Program-made: the position numbers and the translations under genes
Part shown: positions 1,092 to 30,388 of the stretch, in pieces
Position numbering within the stretch: the stretch's first letter is position 1
Layout: each line of letters opens with the position of its first letter
The notes under the pieces: model-generated
The model's input: only the letters and a program-made list of their open reading frames with translations
Database searches by the model: none
Told to the model about the DNA's origin: nothing
Assembly: GCA_012728785.1 (NCBI GenBank)
Contig: JAAYEK010000191.1
Location: forward strand, 1-47,855
Direction of reading: 5' to 3'
Origin: Bacillota bacterium
GTDB lineage: Bacteria > Bacillota > UBA4882 > UBA8346
Length of the DNA stretch: 47,855 bases

Positions 1092-2201
1092 ATGAAAAAG
1101 ATGTTGCTAAATTTCCGGGATCGAATGTTTCGATTAAGTGATGATGAACCGCTCAGCCCTTTATCTGTGTTTGTCCTTATTTTATTGGATATTTTCTTGT
1201 TAACCGTATTATTTCAAGGCTTGAATGCCCAATCCAGATTACTAACAACTCCTGATGAGTATGTCCCTTATATTTGCCAAAGAATTATTATTCATCGGGA
1301 TTGGACCGAGAATAACCGTTTGGATAAACTAAGTGATATCGTAATTGGCTATCATCGTTCAACCTATCGAGAAGAAAGCCCTTCGAAAGTAGATCCCCTT
1401 TGTAAAGAAGTTTTGGATGCGATTAATCGGGTTAAAACTGATCAAGCCGTTACCCAACTATTTGAAGAACGGGATCAACTTATAACGTTGCAAGATGATA
1501 TAGAAAAAAGCCTGAAAGATGTCGGTTCTTTGGCGGAGGTTAGAAACAATCCGAGATATATTGGGTTAGCCAATGAAATCCTCGGAATCAATCAAAAAAT
1601 TAACTCCAACCCAAAAGTAACCAACCTTTGGAGTATTATCGCCAAAGCTTCGGCCCAACAAGAAGCAGTTATCAAAACCTTACGCAATTATCGTTTCATC
1701 TTCCCAATCTATGAAGTTTTACTCCAATTCCTATTTTTACTCCCATTACTGGTGATATTTTATATTTGGTACAAGAAGAGTGTCAATAACAGGTTTCAAA
1801 GCCTGATCTCAACTCATTTATTAATCGTAGTATCGATACCGATCTTTTTAAAAATTATCAAACTTATACTAAATATTATCCCGGAACAGATTATTAAAAA
1901 TTTTATTGATCTATTAGACTCTTTAAAATTGATTGCCATCTGGTATTACATTGTAATCGCCATCGCGATTGGTGTTGCCGTTTTACTGATTTATCTGCTC
2001 CAAAAACATCTCTTTAACCGGGAAAAAATTATCGGAAAAAGGATTCGAAATCGGAATTGTGTGGGCTGCGGTAAAAAACTGCCGGTCAATGATGAACATT
2101 GTTTTGAATGTGGAACCGGTCAATATCAAGTTTGCCCGGAATGTGGACGGTTAACCTATGTAAATAGTAAGTATTGCCGGGTGTGTGGTAAAAGGATCTA
2201 A
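1092..2201 (+). CDS. Membrane protein with C-terminal double zinc ribbon, function unknown
   Basis: I do not recognise the family. An in-frame TTG lies at 1047, but AAAGGAGGT at 1074-1082 sits 9 nt before the ATG at 1092, so I use 1092 (369 residues). One hydrophobic segment is near residues 28-45. A long polar, probably coiled part follows (to about 195), then three or four more membrane segments (about 205-310). A cytoplasmic-looking tail holds four Cys pairs: CVGCGKK, HCFECGTG, VCPECGR and YCRVCGKR, typical of two zinc ribbons. The part starting FQGLNAQSRLL is repeated in the decayed copy near 5430-5645. It lies between the JetD-like gene and a lipid cassette; nothing seen links it functionally to either. 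Confidence 0.7.
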   Translation: MKKMLLNFRDRMFRLSDDEPLSPLSVFVLILLDIFLLTVLFQGLNAQSRLLTTPDEYVPYICQRIIIHRDWTENNRLDKLSDIVIGYHRSTYREESPSKVDPLCKEVLDAINRVKTDQAVTQLFEERDQLITLQDDIEKSLKDVGSLAEVRNNPRYIGLANEILGINQKINSNPKVTNLWSIIAKASAQQEAVIKTLRNYRFIFPIYEVLLQFLFLLPLLVIFYIWYKKSVNNRFQSLISTHLLIVVSIPIFLKIIKLILNIIPEQIIKNFIDLLDSLKLIAIWYYIVIAIAIGVAVLLIYLLQKHLFNREKIIGKRIRNRNCVGCGKKLPVNDEHCFECGTGQYQVCPECGRLTYVNSKYCRVCGKRI

Positions 2202-28081: not shown

Positions 28082-28129
28082 ATGGTGGGCGATTTATTAC
28101 TAGGTAAATATAATATCAAAGAATGTTGA
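28082..28129 (+). CDS. Possible 15-residue leader peptide before murA
   Basis: In the ftsW-murA gap, AAAAGGA (28068-28074) lies 7 nt before an ATG opening a 15-codon frame that ends at TGA 28129, 23 nt before the murA ATG. The peptide reads MVGDLLLGKYNIKEC. It may be a leader peptide or chance; nothing else supports it. Confidence 0.25.
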   Translation: MVGDLLLGKYNIKEC

Positions 28130-28152
28130 TTGAACATCGGGAGGCCGGTTCA

Positions 28153-29472
28153 ATGGCTGATATGGAAACAATGGTACAGGCTAGGTCGAATGTTGTCGAG
28201 CAGGTGGAGATTGTTGGAGGTGAAAAACTACAAGGAGTCATTAGTGTTAGCGGTGCTAAAAACGCGGTTTTAAAACTAATGGCCGCTTCGTTGTTATCAA
28301 ACTCCCAATGTTTAATTAGAAATGTGCCAAGGATTCGGGATGTCGATACCATGTTAGGGGTATTACGAAGCATAGGGGTGGAGATCGACTGGGCTGACGA
28401 ACACTCATTGCTTATCAGAGTCGACAATTATTTAAACGATACCGCTTCCGATGATCTGGTGAGGCAAATGCGCGCTTCGGCCCAGGTCATGGGACCGCTT
28501 TTAACCAGAATCGGGCGAGTCAAACTCTTTCAACCAGGTGGGTGTGTAATAGGTCAACGTCCCTTGGATTTACATCTAAAGGGATTTCAGGCTATGGGCG
28601 CTAGTATTTTGGAGGAACATGGATATATCATTCTCGAAGCCCGCCGCAAATTGAGGGGGGCAGAGATTTTACTGGATTTTCCCAGTGTTGGGGCTACCGA
28701 AAATATTATGGCGGCAGCTATTTTAGCAGAAGGTGTTACAGTAATTAGAAATGCCGCCAAAGAACCGGAAATCATTGAGGAGCAAAACTTTTACAACCGG
28801 CTCGGAGCAAAAATCAGAGGCGCCGGGACCGATACAATTAGGATCGAAGGCGTCACCAGCTTAAATGATCGAATGATTGATTATACCGTAATACCGGATC
28901 GGATTGAAGCCGGGACCTTCATGATCGCTGCGGCGATTACCGGTGGTGAGGTCGAAATTGCCAATGTCATCCCTGAACATATTGAAGCTTTGATTTCAAA
29001 GCTAAAAGAAGTCGGAATTGATGTGGATGTAAGAGAAGACTCGGTTTTAGTCAAGTCAAAGGGGAGATTTAGAGGGGCTGACGTAATGGTTCTGCCCTAT
29101 CCCGGTTTTCCGACCGATCTCCAACCGCAGATTACGGCATTATTAGCAATTGCCGATAGCACCAGTGTTATTACGGAAAATGTATTTGGAAGCCGTTTTC
29201 GTTATGTCGATGAATTAATTCGGATGGGAGCTTCCATAAGAGTGGAGAGTAGAAGCGCAATTGTTAAGGGAAACGCGAAATTAAGCGGCGCTCCGGTATA
29301 TGCCCCGGATTTACGCGCCGGCGCGTCATTAGTAATTGCCGGGTTGGCTGCGGAAGGAAAGACAATAATCGAAGGAGTCCAATTTTTAGAGCGGGGTTAT
29401 GAACGATTAGAGCTAAAATTAGCCAATCTTGGGGCTGATATAAAAAAAACCATTACTGTTTCTAGTATCTAG
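28153..29472 (+). CDS. murA: UDP-N-acetylglucosamine 1-carboxyvinyltransferase
   Basis: First committed enzyme of peptidoglycan synthesis, transferring enolpyruvate from PEP to UDP-GlcNAc in the cytoplasm. Seen: VSGAKNAVLKLMAASLL near the N-terminus, the catalytic loop PGGCVIGQRPLDLHL with Cys131 present (the fosfomycin-reactive residue), and PTDLQPQITALLA. 439 residues from ATG 28153, which has GGGAGG upstream; a longer frame from 28123 would include that RBS. It is unusual to find murA directly after ftsW. The MITE-like element starts right at its stop codon. Confidence 0.95.
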   Translation: MADMETMVQARSNVVEQVEIVGGEKLQGVISVSGAKNAVLKLMAASLLSNSQCLIRNVPRIRDVDTMLGVLRSIGVEIDWADEHSLLIRVDNYLNDTASDDLVRQMRASAQVMGPLLTRIGRVKLFQPGGCVIGQRPLDLHLKGFQAMGASILEEHGYIILEARRKLRGAEILLDFPSVGATENIMAAAILAEGVTVIRNAAKEPEIIEEQNFYNRLGAKIRGAGTDTIRIEGVTSLNDRMIDYTVIPDRIEAGTFMIAAAITGGEVEIANVIPEHIEALISKLKEVGIDVDVREDSVLVKSKGRFRGADVMVLPYPGFPTDLQPQITALLAIADSTSVITENVFGSRFRYVDELIRMGASIRVESRSAIVKGNAKLSGAPVYAPDLRAGASLVIAGLAAEGKTIIEGVQFLERGYERLELKLANLGADIKKTITVSSI

Positions 29473-29587
29473 GCGGTTTCATAATTACATTTAGTAAGAT
29501 TTCGATACAATATATGGTGTCCAGCCCAGATGTATCTATCAATATATTGTATCGAAATGATAAATTTAGGAATTATGAAACTCGCTC
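29472..29587. mobile_element. 116-bp MITE-like inverted repeat with 8-bp target duplication
   Basis: Long inverted arms: GTTTCATAATT (29476-29486) pairs with AATTATGAAAC (29571-29581), and ATTTCGATACAATATAT (29499-29515) pairs with 29542-29558, around a 26-nt loop. The ends extend imperfectly (GGCG against CGCTC). AGTATCTA stands at both flanks (29464-29471 and 29588-29595), as a target-site duplication would. There is no coding sequence inside. The insertion leaves the murA stop intact. The parent transposase family is unknown. The hairpin might also reduce read-through past murA. Confidence 0.72.
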
Positions 29588-29715
29588 AGTATCTAAAAAC
29601 GAAAAGCTGGTTCGTTACTGATCCACCAGTTTTATTTTGAAAAAAGCCCTCAACGGGGAGGAATTTTTGTTAATATTTCCAATTAGCTATTTGCCGAAGG
29701 TGGTTAAATATTTAG

Positions 29716-29744
29716 TTGCAAATATTTTTATTTTGGTTTATGAT
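29716..29744 (+). promoter_or_regulatory. Candidate sigma-A promoter for fapR
   Basis: TTGCAA (29716-29721) and TATGAT (29739-29744) are 17 bp apart, about 40 bp ahead of the fapR ATG. The sequence around it is very AT-rich. Confidence 0.65.
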
Positions 29745-29761
29745 TATTATCAGGTAATAAT
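29743..29761. promoter_or_regulatory. Candidate FapR operator
   Basis: A 19-bp palindrome with 7-bp arms, ATTATTA and TAATAAT, around TCAGG. It overlaps the -10 box and the expected start site, where a repressor would block transcription. On the other strand the centre reads TACCTGATA, close to FapR boxes as I recall them. Autoregulation by malonyl-CoA-sensitive FapR is known in Bacillus. Confidence 0.6.
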
Positions 29762-29785
29762 AATATTAACTAATAAAAGGTAGCA

Positions 29786-30388
29786 ATGGCTGGTAAACCT
29801 GTTAAAAAAACTGAGCGGCATCGTTTGTTAATAGAAGCGATTGAAAAAAATCCGTTCATTACCGATGAGGAGCTGGCGGAGTGTCTTCGGGTGAGTATTC
29901 CCACCATTCGTCTTGATCGCTTGGAATTATCCATCCCTGAGGTTAGAAAACGTACTCGGGAGATGGCGTCCCATTTTTTTGGCGCTTCTCAATCCTTGGA
30001 TGTTCGGGAGATTGTCGGTGAACTAATTGAGATTGAACCGGGAAAACGCGGGCTTTCTTTATTGGAGACCGACCATTCGATGTGTTTGGAAAAATGCGAC
30101 ATTATTCGGGGACATATTATCTTTGCCCAAGCTAATTCCCTAGCTAATGCTATAGCCGATGTTCAAGTTGCTTTAACCGGTAAAACTGAATTTACCTTTT
30201 TAAGAACCGTACGGACCGGGGAAAAATTAATCGCCAAAGCTCAGGTTTTGGAAAAACAAGGCCATCGCTTTTTAATCGAAGTTATTGTCCGTTCCAAAGA
30301 AGCGATAGCTGCTAAAGGGATCTTTGTAATCTATGGGATGACTTTAGAGATGGCTAATTACCTGAACTTATTAAAAGATGTGGAATAA
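29786..30388 (+). CDS. fapR: Fatty acid biosynthesis transcriptional regulator FapR
   Basis: Repressor of fatty acid and phospholipid genes, released by malonyl-CoA. 200 residues: an N-terminal winged-helix part (KNPFITDEELAECLRVSIPT, with recognition helix PTIRLDRLELSIPEVR) and a C-terminal hot-dog fold carrying IIRGHIIFAQANSLANAIAD, the ligand-binding region. AAAAGGTAG lies before the ATG. It is followed by fabH after 27 nt; plsX and fabD, common next genes in Bacillus, are not here. A palindrome over its promoter suggests it controls this operon. Confidence 0.92.
   Translation: MAGKPVKKTERHRLLIEAIEKNPFITDEELAECLRVSIPTIRLDRLELSIPEVRKRTREMASHFFGASQSLDVREIVGELIEIEPGKRGLSLLETDHSMCLEKCDIIRGHIIFAQANSLANAIADVQVALTGKTEFTFLRTVRTGEKLIAKAQVLEKQGHRFLIEVIVRSKEAIAAKGIFVIYGMTLEMANYLNLLKDVE

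Follow-up and report, generated by a model that had tools for sequence, protein, structure and literature searches.

A miniature inverted-repeat element beside murA in a Bacillota bacterium, with a predicted tandem NrdR-type operator at its centre that may serve in end pairing

NrdR has been described as a specific repressor of ribonucleotide reductase (RNR) genes, and the consensus of its binding sites, the NrdR boxes, is ACACWATATATWGTGT. The boxes are 16-bp palindromes, with best binding and repression at a spacer of 15–17 bp (PMC12051234), and their C and G are required for binding; in the NrdR–DNA structure each box is kinked by ~90 degrees, and the DNA as a whole makes a sharp turn of 180 degrees (PMC9110341). 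In Neisseria, the Correia repeat enclosed elements (CREE) are miniature inverted-repeat transposable elements (MITEs) with a core that is bound by IHF, a host protein that bends DNA (PMC2649163, PMC10969869). The element described here is a functional analogue of CREE in that its core is predicted to be such a site, for NrdR; unlike CREE it belongs to Bacillota and has other termini, and the predicted binder is a metabolic repressor that senses nucleotides and acts at a tandem operator. Like the NrdR operators of RNR genes (PMC12051234, PMC9110341), it has two 16-bp boxes that keep the C and G and are separated by 15–17 bp. Unlike them, its pair does not lie 5' of RNR genes and occurs, as part of a mobile element, in many copies per genome. 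Matching terminal repeats and a 4-bp duplication, which is the norm of the family, are also found in an insertion sequence (IS) of the DDE_Tnp_1/DUF772 type from the same genome; this IS, the likely source of the transposase, differs from the element in that it encodes a transposase and lacks NrdR boxes.

The element lies in contig JAAYEK010000191.1 (GCA_012728785.1; Bacillota, UBA4882, UBA8346), positions 1 to 47,855 of which are here called the window. It spans 118 bp on the plus strand (29470..29587, from the family alignment and the duplications), contains no open reading frame of at least 80 aa, and is bounded by terminal inverted repeats that are kept across copies, TAGGCGGTTTCATAATT on the left (29470..29486, plus strand) and GAGCGAGTTTCATAATT on the right (29571..29587, minus strand). 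A preliminary description had reported a non-coding inverted repeat behind murA, flanked by the same eight bases, and was accurate as to its coding status, its arms (29476-29515 and 29542-29581) and the two copies of AGTATCTA (29464-29471 and 29588-29595). The target duplication, however, is really 6 bp, AGTATC (29464..29469 and 29588..29593); the remaining two bases, TA, are assigned to the element by the family alignment, because other copies likewise open with TA (TAGGCGG...). The start of the element is therefore the first base of the stop codon of murA, not the last as had been thought. The TAG stop codon of murA (28123..29472, plus strand; Pfam EPSP_synthase and orthologues) thus comes from the element. 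The filled site is TCT AGT ATC TAG; before insertion it would have been TCT AGT ATC TAA, with a stop in the same codon, so that the MurA protein would be unchanged. The RNA fold of the element stretch has −40.3 kcal/mol (z = −6.3 against shuffles); the effect of the hairpin on the murA message that had been suggested was not found, a role as murA terminator was ruled out, with no terminator-like site at the element, and an Rfam search of the window gave no match. The downstream gene (29786..30388, plus strand; a weak Pfam 4HBT match), which is followed by fabH, is probably fapR, to judge from its N-terminal sequence. A stretch 5' of this gene (29735-29775, TTATTATCAGGTAATAAT..) is conserved with the same-genus genome G001 and is possibly a FapR operator.

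At the centre of the element are two 16-bp NrdR-type boxes with a 16-bp spacer (29521..29536), a distance within the range of NrdR operators (PMC12051234). Box 1, ATACAATATATGGTGT (29505..29520, plus strand), has 2 mismatches to ACACWATATATWGTGT; box 2, TATCAATATATTGTAT (29537..29552, plus strand), has 4, in outer letters only, and is conserved in all relatives. Both boxes have the conserved C and G.

Further copies were found, as had been predicted; the element is one of about 14 in its own genome (14 places, E 5e-64 to 5e-6), several of them 95–99% identical, and diverged relatives are present in six other genomes of the class, namely G001 and the more distant G007, G010, G023, G025 and G027; the genomes compared are mostly draft metagenome-assembled genomes with masked stretches. 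With ends aligned, exact 4-bp duplications flank 15 of 32 copies in the terminus class to which the window copy belongs (1.2 on average and at most 5 in shuffled pairings), compared with which the window copy duplicates 6 bp, and 5-bp duplications flank 15 of 47 copies of a second terminus class, AAGCTTTTTGCGTTGT (shuffled: mean 0.6, maximum 4). An empty site in relatives had also been anticipated. The murA–fapR gap of G001 (L211) is indeed without the element, but it is too diverged for an exact single target to be aligned. Copies lie between two genes in 86 of 101 cases, mostly in tandem gaps, and inside open reading frames in 3; the median distances are 99 bp to gene starts and 52 bp to gene ends.

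A full-length IS with matching ends, likewise predicted, occurs in the same genome (L363, G000:C243). It codes for a 413-aa DDE transposase, has ends GAGCGAATTTCATA.. and a 4-bp duplication, AAGT, and its ends show 1-2 mismatches to GAGCGAGTTTCATAATT (1 for the right end of each). Most likely the MITE uses, in trans, the transposase of such an IS. Relatives of this transposase elsewhere are fragments only (G000, G007, G025), without convincing ends, and the pairing of ends in G023 and G027 brought no autonomous partner to light, the pairs inspected having host genes or masked sequence between them. An IS1595-type element of G007 is bounded by the same ends as the MITE; 5' of its transposase it keeps box 1 together with the MITE arm next to it, and it lacks box 2. 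An IS1595-type transposase promoter of that genome (L351, G007:C3, ~1313-1390, minus strand) has GAACGTATGTTTG and CGAACGTTTGTTTG flanking TATAAT, with an NrdR-type box adjoining; these two sites resemble Gram-positive LexA (SOS) boxes. Taken together, copies, duplications and the IS with matching ends bear out the original view of the window element, which is almost certainly a MITE.

What had been overlooked in describing a plain MITE is the conserved tandem NrdR-type core, which is common to elements with different termini. Across genera the centre is kept (CAATATATNGTG, ~19 bases, TCAATATATTG) while termini and arms drift. A regulator is at hand, as in the element's own genome, the one examined in this respect, nrdR adjoins nrdD and its product has the Zn_ribbon_NrdR and ATP-cone domains; 5' of these genes are two weaker boxes, with 3 mismatches each and the same 32-bp centre distance as in the element. 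The spacer of this nrd operator is by eye unlike the loop of the element, and capture of an nrd promoter was dismissed as its origin. A scan with the core pattern over one genome per species gave, among the matches listed, copies of the element, a Clostridial repeat family and single matches. An RNR gene lies downstream of 9 of the 16 single matches examined among those listed, and Pfam analysis of 8 of these 9 proteins found RNR catalytic domains in 7 and an ATP-cone only in the eighth, the fragment L124. Thus the pattern does detect NrdR operators. Another single match (L137) lies 5' of what appears by eye to be a pyruvate formate-lyase-like gene and not an RNR gene. The element's own genome has 7 exact pairs, as against ~6e-6 expected from a Markov estimate; the reversed pattern had no match in 29 genomes of the class, and the core pattern had one match in the viral collection. 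Some resemblance to the boxes comes cheaply, because their consensus is AT-rich and the element is palindromic, and the case for an operator is carried, on the level of sequence, by the spacing, by the RNR promoters found with the same pattern and by the second family. We thus regard the core as very probably a genuine NrdR operator. The papers searched, a set that excluded subscription journals and preprints, contain no description of NrdR boxes linked with MITEs or repeats.

The search left room for 5-35 free bases between the boxes, yet the centre-to-centre distance is 31-33 bp in 131 of 133 exact pairs. Many copies were gathered with the core pattern itself, and only the G027 set and the sets found by BLAST are unbiased with respect to conservation. 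In the former, 17 copies picked by their ends alone, the deviation from the consensus is 0.8% in the box cores, 16% in the loop and 19% in the arms. In the stem next to the boxes, 6 pairs have changed on both sides in a compensatory manner, and it follows that the hairpin is maintained too; the inner box halves are conserved though hardly paired. Exact pairs number up to 44 per genome (G025), and just 6-7 in several genomes. In G025 there are 211 end sites versus 44 cores, and boxless and single-box relatives exist; with many same-ended elements lacking the pair, it is not strictly required. Single-box derivatives (the 79-bp elements L412, L348 and L139, and 66-bp forms in G061) are exactly 32 bp shorter than two-box elements, and such forms occur in both families, as if the boxes had recombined. 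In L045, L341, L126 and L416 the boxes are separated by an extra palindrome (GGTAATTGTCTAA..TTAGACAATTACC), in the manner of a nested element.

The second family, from Clostridiaceae, has unrelated ends and the same core and spacing. BLAST with one of the family's own sequences as query gave 28 copies, and the spacing is 32 in 25 of the 25 measured; 20-56 matches were obtained in each of six genomes, numbers in which one copy may appear more than once, through partial matches or matches on the opposite strand. Conservation in this family extends over the whole element, so that the boxes are not set apart from the rest. Its dispersal points to mobility, and a target duplication was looked for in its copies and not detected. 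The arms are 28 bp long, compared with 39 bp in the element beside murA, or about one helical turn less. That relatives and an unrelated Clostridial family carry the same core suggests recruitment of a host regulator by mobile DNA. Cultured carriers exist, among them Clostridium hydrogeniformans.

The box pair occupies the centre of these elements, between arms whose lengths agree to within 1-2 bp, and this, together with the 180-degree turn in the NrdR–DNA structure and arm lengths of 28 and 39 bp, has led us to propose an architectural role. At high dATP a host NrdR tetramer would bind both boxes and turn the element DNA by 180 degrees, which, with a central pair and equal arms, would place the two ends side by side. 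NrdR would then be an architectural, nucleotide-state-sensing cofactor for the synapsis of DNA too short to bend easily, and end pairing, hence transposition, would depend on dATP. This is our leading mechanism for NrdR in transposition, and a tentative one. The combined statement, namely a MITE with a trans-acting transposase, a central tandem NrdR-type operator as conserved cargo and NrdR-assisted end pairing, is put forward at slightly less than even chances, and more speculative still is the generalization that unrelated miniature transposon families recruited NrdR as a DNA-turning, end-pairing clamp that ties transposition to the dATP level. Against the architectural model stand the absence of boxes from the IS in L363 and of the pair from many same-ended elements, and the fact that a palindromic build alone would also give a central placement. 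The 4 mismatches of box 2 to the full consensus and the lack of a detectable target duplication in the Clostridial family weigh against the combined statement.

Other explanations of the core have to be set beside this one. Copies might be kept as mobile operators, at which NrdR represses or tunes the neighbours and brings scattered genes under dNTP control. One could cite for this that the core is a full predicted operator, that most copies are intergenic (86/101) and that the window copy has murA on one side and the fapR-like gene's start on the other; yet promoters are not preferred, given the medians above, and neighbouring genes differ between genomes by inspection, with no shared targets found among them, which leaves this an unlikely account. 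No more credible is the notion that the operator was selected 5' of the transposase in a full-length ancestor, the MITEs being deletion derivatives that inherited it. Here the IS1595-type element of G007, which keeps box 1 and a MITE arm 5' of its transposase, would be a welcome intermediate, were it not without box 2 and the IS of the element's own genome without boxes; moreover, many MITEs conserve the box pair as their arms drift, and a promoter remnant would not be expected to have equal arms.

Still less probable, in our estimation, is titration, by which many copies would soak up NrdR and thereby increase RNR expression and the supply of dNTPs, an advantage for replication or for the element itself. 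The maximum of 44 exact pairs, in G025, for a repressor normally serving few operons, would be in keeping with it; the 6-7 pairs of several other genomes are not, and central placement would be unnecessary. Similarly remote is an accidental likeness to NrdR boxes in a hairpin part kept for RNA or DNA structure, or in a subterminal site of the transposase. While the compensatory changes in the stem beside the boxes speak for structure, the inner box halves, hardly paired, are conserved as well, the boxes are spaced as in NrdR operators, RNR promoters are found with the same pattern, and the core is common to elements with unrelated ends.

With tens of NrdR operators distributed by mobile elements, the set of NrdR sites would be larger, and regulon predictions could be misled. 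Along with the architectural role proposed above, the gating of transposition by nucleotide pools via a metabolic repressor, rather than IHF or HU, becomes directly testable.
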